Below are positions 2,109-19,996 of a stretch of DNA of 20,007 nt, piece by piece. Positions within the stretch are counted from its first letter, which is position 1; each line of letters begins with the position of its first letter. The DNA is taken from positions 1 to 20,007 of IMG/VR virus record IMGVR_UViG_3300046656_000042, one strand, 5' to 3'. Origin of the DNA: a virus. Made by a program: the position numbers and the translations under genes. Under the pieces are notes generated by a model. The model had not been told where the DNA came from, searched no databases, and saw nothing but the letters and a program-made list of their open reading frames with translations.

Positions 2109-3092
2109 ATGGCAAGTCCAAATCTGGACGAAATCACGACCACGACACTCCGTAACCGTAAGAAAGAGTTCGCTGACAACGTCTCAAAGAGCAATGCCCT
2201 TCTCTCGCGGCTTGAGGCCAAGGGGAACATTGATCTTCTGGACGGTGGTCGGACGATCGTCAAGGAACTTGAGTACGCGGAGAACGCGACCTTCAAGTAC
2301 TACTCGGGCTACGAGCAGCTTGACATCAGTCCCAGCGACGTTTTTACGGCTGCGGAATATGCGTGGAAGCAAGCAGCAGTCAACGTGTCCTGGTCCGGTC
2401 TTGAGAACCGCGTGCAGAACGCGGGTGCCGAACAGTCTTTGCGACTGATCGCCTCCCGTATTCGAAACGCGGAGAAGACGATGTCGAATCAAATCAGCAT
2501 CGGCATCTACTCGGACGGCTCGGGCAGCGCAGGCAAGCAGATCACGGGACTTCAGTCCCAGGTCGCGGACACTCCGACCACGGGGAGTCCGGGTGGCATC
2601 AACCGAGCGAACTTCGCCTTCTGGCAGAACCAGACGAAGACCCAGACCTCGGCTGATAACTCCACCGAGCTCCTGACCAATATGATGACGTTGTGGACGG
2701 CGTGTTCGCGCGGTGTGGATCGACCCGATCTCATCGTGGCGGGCGCGACGTACTACAATCTCTTCTGGTCGGGTCTCACTCCGATCCAACGTCTGAACGA
2801 GGCTGACAAAGGTGTGCGCGGCTGGAAGTCCTTCCAGTTCGTGGACGCCGATGTCGTGCTCGACGGCGGGCAGGCGATTGGAGCAGCGAACGATTGGGGC
2901 TCGGGTCTATCGGCAACAAGAATGTACTTTCTGAACACGGACTATATCTACTGGTCTGTTCATTCAGGGACGAACATGGAGCCGATGAGCGAGAAACTGT
3001 CCTTGAGTCAGGACGCAACCGTTAAGCCCATTCTGTGGGCCGGCAATCTCACGATGAGTAACGCCGGTCTTCAGGGTGTGCTGCACGCCTAA
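2109..3092 (+). CDS. Major capsid protein (HK97-fold type)
   Basis: A 327-residue protein that resembles a well-known podophage and prophage major capsid family. Landmarks are TTTLRNRKKEFADNV near residue 11, DGGRTIVKELEYAENATF near 46, YSGYEQLDISPSDVFTAAE near 65, then SRIRNAEKTMSNQI, a central RPDLIVAG, FLNTDYIYW and the C-terminal LTMSNAGLQGVL. It would form the hexamers and pentamers of the icosahedral head. No N-terminal delta domain or prohead protease is seen, in keeping with the separate scaffold gene upstream. ATG 2109 follows AGGAG at 2094-2098. It lies between the scaffold and the putative decoration protein. The HK97 fold is inferred from the family, not visible directly. Confidence 0.9.
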   Translation: MASPNLDEITTTTLRNRKKEFADNVSKSNALLSRLEAKGNIDLLDGGRTIVKELEYAENATFKYYSGYEQLDISPSDVFTAAEYAWKQAAVNVSWSGLENRVQNAGAEQSLRLIASRIRNAEKTMSNQISIGIYSDGSGSAGKQITGLQSQVADTPTTGSPGGINRANFAFWQNQTKTQTSADNSTELLTNMMTLWTACSRGVDRPDLIVAGATYYNLFWSGLTPIQRLNEADKGVRGWKSFQFVDADVVLDGGQAIGAANDWGSGLSATRMYFLNTDYIYWSVHSGTNMEPMSEKLSLSQDATVKPILWAGNLTMSNAGLQGVLHA

Positions 3093-3104: not shown

Positions 3105-3626
3105 ATGAGCGATACAGCTTGGACTCTTAAGGACACTGCGGTTGGTCAATTGGGTGTGAACTTCAACACGGTCTATACGAGCGCGGATGCACTCCCGCAC
3201 GCACAAGGGACGATTGTCGATACGGCGGTGGGCAAGGTCATTCTTGTCCAAGCGCAGTCGGCGATTCCTACGTACGCGCTGTGCGTCTATGGCCCGTCTT
3301 CGGCCGCGGCTGCGCAGTCCGTGGATGCGTATCCGGCCTCGTTGACGAACGTGTCCGGTAGGCTCTTTGCGGTGGCTCAGACGAGCATCGGAAAGTCGGC
3401 CTATGGGTGGTTGCACATCGATTGCGCAATCGGTGGTCGTGTCAACTGCGCTGCCATGGAGATGGGGATCATCCCCTACCTCACGGCAACGGGTGGCACG
3501 ATTGACGATGCGGCGACTTCCGGCAAGGCACTCGCGAATCTTTGGATTCAAGAGTCGGCCACGTCGGCGTCCGCACCTCGCGCAATCTGGAGGAACATCA
3601 CCCTCGACCGCGATCAGTTGGCGTAA
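3105..3626 (+). CDS. Putative head decoration or minor head protein
   Basis: A 173-residue protein, Ala/Thr/Ser-rich and mostly beta-prone, starting at ATG 3105 after an AAAGGAG ribosome-binding site just past the capsid stop codon. No catalytic motif or membrane segment is visible. Genes in this position, immediately after the major capsid gene and last before a terminator, are often capsid decoration or stabilising proteins, and the composition would suit that. I do not recognise a specific family, so the role is inferred from position. A strong hairpin terminator begins 10 nt after its stop, so the capsid and this protein could share an abundant transcript ending there. Confidence 0.55.
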   Translation: MSDTAWTLKDTAVGQLGVNFNTVYTSADALPHAQGTIVDTAVGKVILVQAQSAIPTYALCVYGPSSAAAAQSVDAYPASLTNVSGRLFAVAQTSIGKSAYGWLHIDCAIGGRVNCAAMEMGIIPYLTATGGTIDDAATSGKALANLWIQESATSASAPRAIWRNITLDRDQLA

Positions 3627-3694: not shown

Positions 3695-4603
3695 TTGAGT
3701 GGCGTACCGCAGAATCTTGCACCCTTAAAAATCCTGGCTCGTTGTGTGGCTGACTTCCCGACCATCAGAGGGAACGTCGAGTACTGCGCGAAGCTCGGCA
3801 TCAAGTTCTTCATCCCCACGCTCGAACCGCATGGGCTTGAAGCTGTACTAGTCGGTTCCGGTCCTTCGGTTCGCGATCAGGTGAAGAACCTGCAGAAGAA
3901 GTATCGCGAGGCGGGACCGCGAAGCCGTTATATGTTCTTCGGCATCAAGGGAGGACACGACTTCCTGCTCGAGAACGGCATGAACCCGCACTTCGGGATT
4001 GCAGTTGATCCACTGGAGCGGATTCACAAAGAGAACTTCTTGAAGAAGGCGGTGGAGTGCAAATACTTCATCGCGAGTCAGTGTCATCCGACTCTATTCG
4101 ACTCCCTCATCGCACGAGGGGAGCAAGTCATCATCTGGCACTTGCTCACCGACAACTTGCTCAAGTGGAGCCAAGAGGAAGGCTCGCCGATCTTTCAGCA
4201 CTACTTCATTCCGGGCGGATCAACGTCTGGTTTGCGGTCCATAGTGCTTGCTTACGCAATGGGCTTTAGAAAGTTCCATCTCTACGGCTACGACTGCTGT
4301 CTCTCGCTTGCCAAGCCGAACGACAAGAAGCCCACGCTCCGCAAGGTCAATGGCGAAATCTGTGACGGCAAGGACGAGAAGGATCGCGAGAAAGCGATCG
4401 AGGTCTTCGTCGGTGAAGGTACAGATCGCAGAGGCTTCTGGGCTGACAGAGCTATGGCGAGTCAGTGCACGGAGTATCAGCAGCTCCTGAAATCGATGCA
4501 GAAGGACCATGACCCCTTCACCGTGCGGGCATACGGTCAGGGCATGATCCAGCACATCAATCGGCTCCTCTACAAAGAGGGTTCGCCGACGTGTCTCCCT
4601 TAG
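3695..4603 (+). CDS. DUF115/MptE-like protein, putative glycosyltransferase
   Basis: A 302-residue protein starting at TTG 3695, placed there because AGGAGG (3683-3688) lies 6 nt upstream. The motif LVGSGPS at about residues 52-58, VDP at 104-106, the GGSTSGLRSIVLAYAMG segment at about 174-190 and the final GYD at 198-200 fit the DUF115/MptE-like family. That family includes 6-hydroxymethylpterin diphosphokinases and the Maf proteins that add nonulosonic sugars to flagellin. In a phage with glycosyltransferase neighbours, a sugar-transfer role is more likely than pterin metabolism, but this is inference. No signal peptide or membrane segment is seen, so it should act in the cytoplasm. It is the first gene of a four-gene overlapping block and shares 13 nt with the next. 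Confidence 0.7.
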   Translation: MSGVPQNLAPLKILARCVADFPTIRGNVEYCAKLGIKFFIPTLEPHGLEAVLVGSGPSVRDQVKNLQKKYREAGPRSRYMFFGIKGGHDFLLENGMNPHFGIAVDPLERIHKENFLKKAVECKYFIASQCHPTLFDSLIARGEQVIIWHLLTDNLLKWSQEEGSPIFQHYFIPGGSTSGLRSIVLAYAMGFRKFHLYGYDCCLSLAKPNDKKPTLRKVNGEICDGKDEKDREKAIEVFVGEGTDRRGFWADRAMASQCTEYQQLLKSMQKDHDPFTVRAYGQGMIQHINRLLYKEGSPTCLP

Positions 4604-5250
4604 CGATCACGACGTTCCCCGCTAACGCTTGGGACGTGTACGCAAGGGTCTGTCTCTCTCGGATGGTCAAGTTTTGGCCGGGCTCGATCCGAGCCTACAT
4701 TGAGAGCCAAACTCCTCCGGCGCTCGATGGGATCGAGTTCCGGCCTTTTGATAGTGACGAGAGGACTGCTTTTCTAGCCCTCCCGCCGCCGTTCCCGATG
4801 AAAGGCTTCCTCTGGGACGCGAAGCGGTTCTGTCACAAGGTCTTCGCCCAGCTTGATGCGGCGAAGGACGGAGAACCTTTCTGGTGGATCGACGCCGATG
4901 TCCTGATGGGTGCGACACCGCCTGAAGACCTCTTGGAGCAGTCAGAACTCACGACCTTCATGGGGCGCAGTTCCTACACCGAGACGGGATTGGTGGGCTT
5001 CAACCCGAAGCATGAGAACTGGCCGCTCTTTGAGGCCAAGTATCGATATATGTATCACGGAGGGATCTACACCCTACAGAACGGTTGGACGGACTGTCAC
5101 GCCTTCGATTGGGCTCGGAGCGGACAGGGTAAGAACTTAACCCCGACTGGGCAGGGGTTTGACAACGTGATGAGGCAAAGCGTGTTCGCCCCTTACATGG
5201 CTCACTACAAGGGGCCTTTGAAAATGAAATTGGTTGGAGGAGTCAAGTGA
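4591..5250 (+). CDS. Putative GT-A type glycosyltransferase
   Basis: A 219-residue protein starting at GTG 4591, inside the end of the upstream gene, with AAAGAGGG about 9 nt before it. The core evidence is WWIDADVLM at about residues 98-106, a hydrophobic strand followed by a DXD motif (Asp101-Ala-Asp103). In GT-A enzymes this motif binds the metal and the sugar nucleotide. The order of the remaining elements (GLVGFNP, then a tyrosine-rich segment, then TGQGFDNVMRQSVF near the C-terminus) also suits a small cytoplasmic glycosyltransferase. The donor and acceptor cannot be told. It is followed by the methyltransferase with a GTGA stop/start overlap. Confidence 0.65.
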   Translation: MSPLAITTFPANAWDVYARVCLSRMVKFWPGSIRAYIESQTPPALDGIEFRPFDSDERTAFLALPPPFPMKGFLWDAKRFCHKVFAQLDAAKDGEPFWWIDADVLMGATPPEDLLEQSELTTFMGRSSYTETGLVGFNPKHENWPLFEAKYRYMYHGGIYTLQNGWTDCHAFDWARSGQGKNLTPTGQGFDNVMRQSVFAPYMAHYKGPLKMKLVGGVK

Positions 5251-5879
5251 ATAGATTCGGTCAGATTTACTCATGGTGCGAGGCGCACAAGCCGAAAGTG
5301 ATCTTAGAGATCGGCACCTGGAACGGCCACAACGCCGCCAGGATGATGAACGAGATCGGCAAGGACGCGAAGGTCAAGTACATCGGCTTTGACCTTTGGG
5401 AAGACGTGGATGAGATCGAGAACATCAATGAGCTGGAGAACAACGCCAAGGCTCGGGTGACGGAAGAGGACGCGAGGAAGTATTTGAAGTCCTACGATAT
5501 CGAGCTCATCAAGGGCAACACGCGAGAGACGTTACCGAAGTACGTCAAGGGCAAGAAGCCGTTCGTGGATCTTGCGGTGATTGATGGGGGTCACTCGCAG
5601 GGCACGATCAAGAGTGACTTCTTGACGGTACTCGAAGTCGTGAAGCCCACAGGGATCATCATTCTGGACGACTACTACTACGGCTGTCACATCCCGAAGA
5701 TGGGTGCGCAGACCGTGATGTGTAACATCCAGGCGCCCTATACGGTTCTCCCGGTAGCGGATCGTGCGAAGGATGGCTCGATCATCAAGCTGGTGCAGGT
5801 GAACATGAGGGATGTTCCGAGAATCGACTTCCATGACGTGCCAGAGGAGAACGCATGGCGCTTCAATCCAGCGGCGTGA
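5247..5879 (+). CDS. Class I SAM-dependent methyltransferase
   Basis: A 210-residue protein starting at GTG 5247, overlapping the previous stop by 4 nt and preceded by GGTTGGAGGAG. VILEIGTWNGHNA (residues 18-30) is a motif I SAM-binding glycine loop. FVDLAVIDGGHSQGTIKSDF (106-125) and IIILDDYYYG (137-146) match the acidic post-motif positions of the Methyltransf_24 group, whose members often methylate sugars or their precursors. It probably methylates a small molecule or glycan rather than DNA, as no nucleic-acid recognition element is visible. Its place between two glycosyltransferase genes supports sugar O-methylation, which is inference. The next gene starts 25 nt before its stop. Confidence 0.8.
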   Translation: MNRFGQIYSWCEAHKPKVILEIGTWNGHNAARMMNEIGKDAKVKYIGFDLWEDVDEIENINELENNAKARVTEEDARKYLKSYDIELIKGNTRETLPKYVKGKKPFVDLAVIDGGHSQGTIKSDFLTVLEVVKPTGIIILDDYYYGCHIPKMGAQTVMCNIQAPYTVLPVADRAKDGSIIKLVQVNMRDVPRIDFHDVPEENAWRFNPAA

Positions 5880-6586
5880 TACCGCTCTTTGTTGGTTATG
5901 ACCCGAGAGAGTCGGTTGTCTATCACGTCTTGAACCAATCGATCTTGGAGACCGCGTCGATTCCGGTCGCGGAGATTCCGCTCCATACGCGGATGCTGAA
6001 GGACTTCGACGGTCAGCAGGACGGGACGAACGCCTTCATCTACTCCCGCTTCCTGATCCCGTGGGTAATGGGCTTCAACGGCTGGGCGCTTTACTGCGAC
6101 AGCGACATGCTGTTCCGCGACGACATCGCGAAGCTCTGGGCACTCAGGGATGACTCCAAAGCGGTGATGGTGGTCAAGCATGACTACAAGACTCGGCACA
6201 GCTTGAAGTCGATTGGGACCGCTCTGGAGAGCAGGAACGAGGACTACCCCAGGAAGAACTGGAGTTCGATGGTCTTGTGGAACTGCGGACATCCCAGGAA
6301 CCGGATCGTCACGCGAGACTTCGCCTCAAGCGCCGGGGGCAAGACGCTGCACCGCTTCCAGTGGTTACAGGATGACGAGATTGGTGAGATCCCAGGAGAG
6401 TGGAATCACTTGGTTGGCGAGAAGCCCTACGACGCCAAGGCCAAGCTGGTTCATTTCACTTTGGGATCTCCCTGCTTTGACTTCTATCGCAAGTGTGACT
6501 ACTCCGACGAGTGGCACCGAACGAAGGCACAACTAGAACGCGCGGACTGTTTGAGACTCACAAAGGTTGGAGGAGCATATGGCTGA
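5855..6586 (+). CDS. Putative glycosyltransferase, GT8-like
   Basis: A 243-residue protein starting at ATG 5855 after AGAGGAGA. The N-terminal strand IPLFVGYDPRES is followed by FIYSRFLIPW (61-70) and WALYCDSDMLFRDD (77-90), which carries the DXD metal and sugar-nucleotide motif (Asp82-Ser-Asp84). The segment YPRKNWSSMVLWNC (131-144) and a late LVHFTLGSPCF complete a pattern familiar from phage and prophage proteins annotated as glycosyltransferases. It should act in the cytoplasm with a nucleotide-sugar donor, with an unknown acceptor. It is the last gene of the transferase cassette and overlaps the next gene by 8 nt. Confidence 0.75.
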   Translation: MALQSSGVIPLFVGYDPRESVVYHVLNQSILETASIPVAEIPLHTRMLKDFDGQQDGTNAFIYSRFLIPWVMGFNGWALYCDSDMLFRDDIAKLWALRDDSKAVMVVKHDYKTRHSLKSIGTALESRNEDYPRKNWSSMVLWNCGHPRNRIVTRDFASSAGGKTLHRFQWLQDDEIGEIPGEWNHLVGEKPYDAKAKLVHFTLGSPCFDFYRKCDYSDEWHRTKAQLERADCLRLTKVGGAYG

Positions 6587-18103: not shown

Positions 18104-18583
18104 CTAGAAGAATACGCACGGCCCTTCGTGGCGTGGCATCTTGATGCAATGGTTCGGGCAAAATCCACCGGCCTCTAGCGCCCGCGCAGATATCTCCGTA
18201 TTGGGTAACTGACTCTCTACGGCACGGCTACAACTCCCCAGATGAGCATCCATGATGCCATTGCACTCCGGGCACCGATGTAGCGGATTCTCTACAGCAC
18301 TGTCGTCGCGCGTCATCCATGCCAGGTCAGCGCGGACAATCTCGCCAGCCAAAAACCCGCGAACCGCTCTAAGCACAGAGTCTAGACGGGACTGTAGCTC
18401 TCCACACCGCTCGATATTGGCACCGTTCAGTTGCTCGAGAGCGCCTAGCTTGGACTCTACGGCTAACAGCTCGGACATTGGCACGAATCGTTGATCGCAC
18501 GCGGCGCAAGACCATAGCGCGGCCGGCTTCTGAGTCTTCGTGTCGACCCACGCCACGATCTTCGGATGCGCGCAATCGTTCAT
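18104..18583 (-). CDS. Cys-rich zinc-ribbon-like protein
   Basis: A 159-residue protein from ATG 18583, chosen because GGAGA lies about 8 nt upstream. The frame extends to 18691, but that part overlaps the upstream gene and an operator-like palindrome. It has three cysteine clusters: C4 with C26-x-x-C29 near the start, C104-x-x-C107 with C118, and C142-x-x-x-C146 with C156 (His nearby) at the end. Between the first and second lies a helical, Leu/Glu-rich stretch (about 38-75). The arrangement suggests two or three structural zinc sites around a coiled coil. The function is unknown. Similar Cys-rich small proteins are common in phage accessory regions. Confidence 0.5.
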   Translation of the reverse strand: MNDCAHPKIVAWVDTKTQKPAALWSCAACDQRFVPMSELLAVESKLGALEQLNGANIERCGELQSRLDSVLRAVRGFLAGEIVRADLAWMTRDDSAVENPLHRCPECNGIMDAHLGSCSRAVESQLPNTEISARALEAGGFCPNHCIKMPRHEGPCVFF

Positions 18584-18614
18584 CGTTCGTCTCCGCGGGG
18601 CCAATAAGAATCCC

Positions 18615-18633
18615 ATAACAATGGCATTGTTAT
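18615..18633. promoter_or_regulatory. 19-bp perfect inverted repeat, operator-like
   Basis: ATAACAATG and CATTGTTAT form a perfect 9-bp inverted repeat with a single central base (ATAACAATGGCATTGTTAT on the plus strand). It sits in the 56-nt gap between the 94-residue and 159-residue minus-strand genes. The arms are AT-rich and no T run follows, so it is more likely a dimeric regulator site than a terminator. No clear promoter is visible beside it. Confidence 0.45.
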
Positions 18634-18639
18634 CCCCTT

Positions 18640-18924
18640 CTATTCGCCACTGGGTCCAGTAGGCGAAGGCACTTTCCCGGTTCCTCCGCACTCAGAACAA
18701 TTGCGCGTCGGACGATAGCTACCATCCGGGTAGTCGATGCCGCCGCCGAAGCCATAGCCATGGCATGCTGGGCACCTCTCATTGATAGACCTTTGATATT
18801 TAGCTCTCTGCTTACAAGCCTCGGAGCAATGCTTACCAGTTTTCAGCCCTTTGAAGCGCTTACCGCACGCGCAGACATGCCAGACCTTGCAGCGCTTGGC
18901 AGCGAGCTTCTGAGCAGCTTTCAT
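18640..18924 (-). CDS. DnaJ-type CxxCxGxG zinc-ribbon protein
   Basis: A 94-residue basic protein with two metal-binding layouts. The first is a ribbon with CACGKRF (C18, C20) and HCSEAC (C33, C37), like the zinc ribbons of small phage proteins. The second is CPACHGYG (C51, C54) and CSECGGTG (C76, C79), the repeat of the DnaJ cysteine-rich domain. The role could be binding of nucleic acid or a partner protein; there is no J domain, so it is not a DnaJ. ATG 18924 overlaps the upstream gene's stop by 4 nt (ATGA), which means coupled translation with the gene at 18921-19139. Confidence 0.65.
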   Translation of the reverse strand: MKAAQKLAAKRCKVWHVCACGKRFKGLKTGKHCSEACKQRAKYQRSINERCPACHGYGFGGGIDYPDGSYRPTRNCSECGGTGKVPSPTGPSGE

Positions 18925-19139
18925 CGCAGCTCATACTCCAGAATAGCCGCCCCAGGATTGGTACATCGGATGATCTCTTGACGCTCCAGCGCTTTCACCG
19001 TCTGCGGTGAGACGTGATAGAAGTGCCCGCCCTTCTGTAATCTGGCGCCACCCTCGGCCCGCCCCCAGGACAGCACATATCCATCCGTGAGTCGGATAAA
19101 CGTGCCGCTATACGGCAGATACTTGTATCCCTTCCTCAT
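18921..19139 (-). CDS. Small unknown protein
   Basis: A 72-residue basic protein from ATG 19139, 4 nt after the stop of the gene upstream, with GTTGAGG as a plausible ribosome-binding site. Several Tyr, Gly and Lys residues at the start (RKGYKYLPYSG) are followed by a possible helix near the end (SPQTVKALERQEIIR). No family recognised; a small winged-helix-like or DNA-binding role is possible from the last segment but cannot be shown. Confidence 0.5.
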   Translation of the reverse strand: MRKGYKYLPYSGTFIRLTDGYVLSWGRAEGGARLQKGGHFYHVSPQTVKALERQEIIRCTNPGAAILEYELR

Positions 19140-19143
19140 GGCC

Positions 19144-19341
19144 TCAACCCCAGTGAATCACTTCAGGAGTCCAGGTGGGCAGGTAATAACCGGGCGTTGT
19201 AGCGCGGCGAAGTGCTTCAGCCTCGGTCAGGTGGATTCCCTCGCCGCCGTCGTCCCGGCCATCGTCCTCTTGGGAGCCATTCGCATCCGTAAGACGCACG
19301 AAGTAGTCGCGGCGGGCTGCTTGTCGGTTTTGCTTGCTCAT
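19144..19341 (-). CDS. Small unknown protein, first gene behind the minus-strand promoter
   Basis: A 65-residue protein from ATG 19341 (MSKQNRQAARRDYF). The frame extends to a GTG at 19356, but that would lie upstream of the predicted transcript start, so the ATG is preferred. The protein has a basic N-terminus, an acidic Gly/Asp-rich middle (QEDDGRDDGGEG) and a C-terminal Tyr/Trp/Pro-rich segment. No recognised family. The ATG falls about where transcription should begin for the promoter at 19348-19375, implying a leaderless message. Confidence 0.5.
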   Translation of the reverse strand: MSKQNRQAARRDYFVRLTDANGSQEDDGRDDGGEGIHLTEAEALRRATTPGYYLPTWTPEVIHWG

Positions 19342-19347
19342 GGGTTC

Positions 19348-19375
19348 ACTATACACGATAGCGCTACCGTGTCAA
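19348..19375 (-). promoter_or_regulatory. Sigma70-type promoter with embedded operator palindrome
   Basis: Reading the minus strand, TTGACA (19375-19370) and TATAGT (19353-19348, five of six matches to TATAAT) are 16 nt apart. The 20-bp sequence ACACGATAGCGCTACCGTGT (plus strand 19353-19372) is palindromic with one mismatched pair and lies across the spacer, touching both boxes, as repressor operators often do. The start of transcription would be near 19341, the ATG of the first gene. Confidence 0.65.
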
Positions 19376-19378
19376 CAC

Positions 19379-19996
19379 CTATTTGAGAGAGTCTCCCGAG
19401 AACGTTGCCACTATTCCCTGAAAGATAAGCTCGGCAGCTCGAGGGACGATCGCGTTACCGAGGGCATGACGTCGGTCCACCCAATAGGGTAGCCCATCAT
19501 CCGTTCCCAATCTTCGGGGTGCAGAATCCCAAGACTCTGCAAGCTCGGCCGCCATTTCCCCGCCCTCCCTGCTCCACCACCCCGACAGCTCCCGTAAGCG
19601 CTCGCAGTCGGCGTGGGCAACCAACCACCCACGGGCTCGGTGATGGACCGCTCCAACGTCAGAGGCTCGCACGCGAAGCGGCACGCTGGAATACCCTCGC
19701 TCATACAAGCGGCGCCGCAGCTCGGGCATCCATCGACGCCAGGTGTGGTAGACGTTCTCGATAACAAGCCAATCAGGAGCAATCCCAGCGAGCTCCTTTG
19801 CCCGTTCTCGAGACCGGCTTGGCGCCCCGCGATGCTGAGATCCTGGCAAGGAAACCCAGCCGTCACCACCAAACTGTTGCTCCAGTACGCCGAGGCAAAA
19901 CGGGTCAATCTCGCAGAACCCAACGGTCTGCCATCCGAATCGGCGGGCGGCAATGGCGAATCCTCCGATCCCGCTGAATAGGTCAAGGTGCTTCAC
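19379..19996 (-). pseudogene. C5 DNA cytosine methyltransferase, frame-disrupted
   Basis: The 205-residue frame from GTG 19996 begins HLDLFSGIGGFA (motif I, SAM-binding loop) and FCEIDPFC, and later has DWLVIENV (motif VI), VGAVHHRARGWLVAHAD (motif VIII-like) and HALGNAIVP (motif X-like). The catalytic Pro-Cys of motif IV is absent in this frame. It occurs instead in the +1 frame as TAGFPCQDLS at about 19864-19835. The region from there to motif VI is also shorter than usual. The upstream frame continues as GWVSLPGSQHRGAPS, which is not family-like. So the gene has an indel before motif IV and another between motif IV and VI, and may be inactive. Because the motif set is otherwise complete, assembly errors or frameshifting are also possible. 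C5 enzymes in phages protect DNA from restriction. Confidence 0.65.

Follow-up and report, generated by a model that had tools for sequence, protein, structure and literature searches.

A predicted leaderless promoter with an operator-like palindrome in its spacer, ahead of a block of small orphan genes in an uncultured phage

A repressible leaderless promoter of the sigma-70 type appears to lie inside the virus sequence IMGVR_UViG_3300046656_000042, where a conserved early operon gives way to a variable block made up of small orphan genes. Judged from the DNA, this is the reading towards which the evidence leans. The sequence gives good support to a narrower description of the site, that of a predicted leaderless promoter whose spacer carries an operator-like palindrome. 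The promoter match, the palindrome, the spacing, the missing Shine-Dalgarno sequence and the operon layout are all read directly from the sequence.

Results

Genomic setting

The record analysed comprises 20,007 bases (hereafter the window, meaning the whole stretch) and is probably a fragment. Its plus-strand structural genes converge on a minus-strand block at 18104-19341, upstream of which a C5 cytosine methyltransferase gene lies on the same strand, with the end of its frame A at 19379. The major capsid protein (2109-3092, plus strand) is 52% identical to the capsid protein of Bradyrhizobium phage ppBjS10J-1 and 46% identical to that of Myxococcus phage Mx9. No close relatives of the 2-kb region of interest were found in named phages, and Rfam and tRNA searches gave zero matches. 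Between the capsid and tail genes, a run of plus-strand genes at 3695-6586 (302, 219, 210 and 243 residues) resembles, by eye only, sugar-transfer or methyl-transfer enzymes, which is odd inside a structural block.

Promoter and predicted start

The promoter site reads in full, on the minus strand, 5'-TTGACACGGTAGCGCTATCGTGTATAGTGAACCCATGAGC-3', and the region from the methyltransferase stop to the ATG reads GTG-TTGACA-CGGTAGCGCTATCGTG-TATAGT-GAACCC-ATG on the same strand. Its elements are as follows.

19370..19375, minus strand: -35 box TTGACA, 6 of 6 consensus bases, from sequence
19348..19353, minus strand: -10 box TATAGT, 5 of 6 consensus bases, spacer of 16 bp, from sequence
19341, minus strand: predicted transcription start, the A of the ATG, placed by spacing from the -10 box
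19341-19339, minus strand: ATG of the 65-codon gene, separated from the -10 box by the six bases GAACCC
19353..19372: near-perfect 20-bp palindrome ACACGGTAGCGCTATCGTGT (minus strand), 9 of 10 pairs matching, presumed operator to which a repressor may bind

No other promoter-like site in the 20-kb fragment scores as well as TTGACA-16-TATAGT (19375-19348, minus strand), which has 11 of 12 consensus matches; with spacers of 15-19 allowed, none of the others in the window reaches even 10. Dinucleotide shuffles gave a chance expectation per window of 0.07 sites with at least 11 matches and 1.4 with at least 10. The site occupies the 37-bp gap between two genes, on the coding strand, and the methyltransferase stop falls 3 nt ahead of the -35 box. 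Sigma-70-type promoters have hexamers near consensus and spacers of 16-18, as found here; the optimal spacer is 17.

Counting from the -10 box, the seventh base is the A of the ATG, a purine preceded by C, and this is therefore the expected start point. The first-pass annotation had placed the -10 box TATAGT just before the ATG and predicted a start at this A, and the spacing of six intervening bases bears this out. Shine-Dalgarno pairing before the 65-codon ATG amounts to -0.4 kcal/mol (upstream 20 bases against the 16S tail), among the weakest values of the genes listed, most window genes having about -5 to -10 kcal/mol. Since the ATG sits at the expected start and the bases before it pair so poorly, a leaderless message, with its predicted +1 at the AUG and no Shine-Dalgarno sequence, would be the natural reading if the promoter works.

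Palindrome

The palindrome fills the spacer and covers the last three bases of the -35 box and the first base of the -10 box. Its near-perfect 20-bp symmetry across the spacer, described in the first-pass annotation, was confirmed. The window holds 2 palindromes of such quality against 0.71 expected per shuffled window, the second lying within a gene at 3416, and the palindrome alone is therefore not significant. The pattern ACACG-N10-CGTGT, further copies of which the same annotation had suggested looking for, was found 8 times in the 20-kb fragment with up to 2 mismatches against 8.35 expected, which is chance level.

The coincidence of palindrome and strong promoter, unlike the palindrome alone, is significant. 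There are 21 distinct strong promoter-like sites, with 11 or more matches, in 121 loci (0.97 Mb) from phages related through either the capsid or the methyltransferase gene. Of these sites, 3 bear such a palindrome, compared with 42 of 20,000 random positions (0.2%) and with 0.2-0.6% of weaker promoter-like sites (7 to 9 matches); because the counting rules were fixed after the site was seen and the set includes the site itself, these figures are guides and not strict probabilities. On this post hoc count the palindrome lies on promoter elements beyond chance, as a repressor operator would. The two other strong phage promoters overlapped by palindromes lie at L056 6706 and L104 3741 (both minus strand). 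The genes behind them are small and, by reading of the sequences alone, ribbon-helix-helix-like. Ribbon-helix-helix proteins usually repress the promoters from which they are expressed.

No second operator copy was found within the 20-kb window and no copies were found in nine related records. The exact palindrome was not found in 2.9 million viral contigs and about 85,000 genomes, nor was the exact promoter-plus-operator pattern in the viral contigs. The proposal of direct repression through this palindrome thus stands in part: the element is operator-like and such elements are enriched on strong phage promoters, but no repressor gene, for which the first-pass annotation had suggested looking, was recognised in the 20-kb fragment.

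Genes of the block

Four minus-strand genes follow the promoter.

19144..19341, minus strand: 65-codon orphan gene, first of the block, predicted strand-strand-helix-strand fold
18921..19139, minus strand: orphan gene of 72 codons, separated by 4 nt from the end of the 65-codon gene
18640..18924, minus strand: 94-codon gene with a DnaJ-type zinc-ribbon motif CxxCxGxG, 4-nt overlap with the 72-codon gene
18104..18616, minus strand: last minus-strand gene of the block, about 170 codons, cysteine-rich, possible starts at 18616 and 18583

Homologues of the 65-codon gene were found neither in phages, viral contigs and genomes nor in five related records and PDB sequences, and the codon-position composition of its frame is inside the range of the other genes. 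The 65-residue protein has no Pfam or NCBIfam match, matched no DNA-binding family, and gave against PHROG only a weak match to a family of unknown function (E 0.036). An AlphaFold2 single-sequence model (mean pLDDT 77, pTM 0.61) predicts strand-strand-helix-strand, with neither a helix-turn-helix nor a ribbon-helix-helix, and a structural search with it returned zero significant matches. These results lend no support to the earlier suggestion that the gene encodes a phage regulator like cI.

Relatives of the remaining block genes were not found in phages. The 94-codon gene has the zinc motif alone in common with five contigs, and its product resembles a DnaJ-like zinc ribbon in Pfam at E 6e-4, which is below the cut-off. 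Weak likenesses of this product to Q-like antiterminators (E 0.022) and to anti-TRAP are leads only. A convincing terminator was not found behind the block.

Position of the promoter in related phages

The nearest related phage, G001 (45.5 kb), has a capsid 91% identical to that of the window and a methyltransferase with 77% DNA identity. There a recombination gene like NinB (PHROG E 9e-32) comes immediately after the methyltransferase, and beyond it lie a different set of small genes and then a convergent structural block. G001 lacks a promoter-like site of comparable strength behind its methyltransferase, as well as any good copy of the palindrome. In L042 and L043 the methyltransferase runs gaplessly into other genes and the promoter site is absent. 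Because the genes behind the methyltransferase differ in G001, the promoter sits where conserved genes give way to variable ones; the relatives lack the site, and it therefore goes with the variable genes, in the manner of moron-like cargo.

Two-frame methyltransferase upstream

The methyltransferase ahead of the promoter is spread over two overlapping frames.

19379..19996, minus strand: C5 cytosine methyltransferase frame A, with motif I, ENV, an R-x-R-like element and GNAIVP
19411..19986, minus strand: C5 cytosine methyltransferase frame B, with the catalytic FPCQDLSIAG and PTPTASAYGSCRGGG...HPEDWERMMGYPIGWT (the PTPTAS...GWT stretch)

Frame A matches positions 2-42 of the NCBIfam dcm model and frame B positions 63-88. 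The layout is kept in L040 (5112-5769), L042/L128, L043/L129 and L130, in at least five phages, with L127 and L131 also having an open frame B. Pairwise comparisons revealed that over codons 150-180 substitutions shift to position 1 of frame A, equivalent to position 3 of frame B (positions 1:3, for example, 13:2, 10:3 and 18:3), and that over codons 180-210 they are back at position 3. Because these patterns shift between the frames, both frames are under selection and the arrangement is no sequencing error. C5 methyltransferases of two polypeptides are known, namely M.AquI and M.EcoHK31I, the small subunit of the latter holding only motif IX (PMC3404938). Here the catalytic PCQ is in the second frame, a split unlike those of M.EcoHK31I and M.AquI as described in that paper. 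We note in passing that this gene is more striking than the promoter. One phage (L043/L129) carries tandem C5 methyltransferases at L129 581-2021, an ordinary single-frame gene and then a two-frame gene.

Discussion

Under the favoured reading, the variable block (the 65-, 72-, 94- and about 170-codon genes) would have its own transcription from the internal promoter. RNA polymerase would bind TTGACA-16-TATAGT and start at 19341, the A of the ATG. The first gene would then be read from a leaderless message, and translation of the later genes would rely on their own Shine-Dalgarno sequences or on coupling. A dimeric repressor, encoded by phage or host, most likely sits on the 20-bp palindrome, and the dimer occupying the spacer would block the polymerase. 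We infer transcription from the site, its 5' end and a repressor, together with that repressor's identity and timing. Against this reading, the site is unconserved, no second operator, repressor gene or homologue of the 65-codon gene was found in the searches above, and the spacer is 16. The further claim that the site is a control switch of the accessory block is not supported, the window having no second operator and no recognised repressor gene and a near relative lacking the site; such a switch may nevertheless exist.

Several other explanations were weighed. The leaderless promoter may be genuine but constitutive, the palindrome being coincidental or merely tuning the spacer; we hold this to be somewhat unlikely. 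Palindromes of equal quality arise about 0.7 times per shuffled window, and the site has neither a second operator copy in the window nor a known repressor, as a constitutive promoter would have it, but a palindrome would hit the single strong promoter by chance in only about 0.2% of cases. It is decidedly unlikely that the promoter match itself arose by chance and is silent, with read-through from the early operon transcribing the block. The near relative does manage its post-methyltransferase genes without an internal promoter this strong; against this, only 0.07 such sites are expected, position, strand and spacing all fit, and translation of a read-through message would need a Shine-Dalgarno sequence, which the first gene lacks.

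Very unlikely, too, is that the inverted repeat works in RNA, as a hairpin in the stretch of read-through message that separates the 65-codon gene from the methyltransferase, with a role in processing, stability or attenuation. On the minus strand the single mismatch would turn into a G-U pair, and the resulting 8-bp stem, closed by a GCGC loop, has an energy of -8.6 kcal/mol, but folding of the region is not better than that of shuffled sequence (z -0.07), neither a T run after the stem nor an Rfam match is present, and the promoter boxes would be left unexplained. Most improbable of all, the orphan 65-residue protein might be a new DNA-binding autorepressor, or the two-frame methyltransferase might methylate AGCGCT at the palindrome centre and so couple DNA modification to expression of the cargo block.

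The favoured arrangement has precedents. In the acuR-acuI-dddL operon of Rhodobacter sphaeroides an inverted repeat, tested as operator by mutation, overlaps the promoter of a leaderless operon (PMC3017554). Both systems have a -35/-10 promoter, an overlapping inverted-repeat operator and a leaderless first operon gene, but acuR is itself a TetR-family repressor (PMC3017554) and the first gene here encodes no recognisable DNA-binding protein. Leaderless starts are documented in phages for lambda cI (PMC4965119), for cI and cro of PY54, which has a single 16-bp palindromic Cro operator (PMC4488713), and for paaR2 of a cryptic prophage (PMC8630535). Like these, the present site is a phage promoter starting at the AUG with a palindromic operator nearby, those of the precedents being of 16-18 bp (PMC4488713, PMC8630535). 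They are, however, immunity switches with divergent promoters and repressor genes, unlike the single promoter at an operon end with one operator and no repressor gene seen here. What chiefly sets the site apart from the acuR and phage-repressor precedents is a first gene that cannot be recognised as a regulator.

The block also resembles phage morons. Its small genes are variable, absent from the relative and served by a predicted promoter of their own next to a conserved operon. Unlike this block, behind which no convincing terminator was found, morons are as a rule intergenic and end in a terminator of their own.

The regulatory principle is thus already known, and the genes it would drive here are orphans. 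The promoter would mark a separately controlled set of small orphan genes in an uncultured phage, and it predicts a 5' end at the AUG. The enrichment of spacer palindromes on strong phage promoters may offer a simple route to regulated phage promoters in metagenomes.
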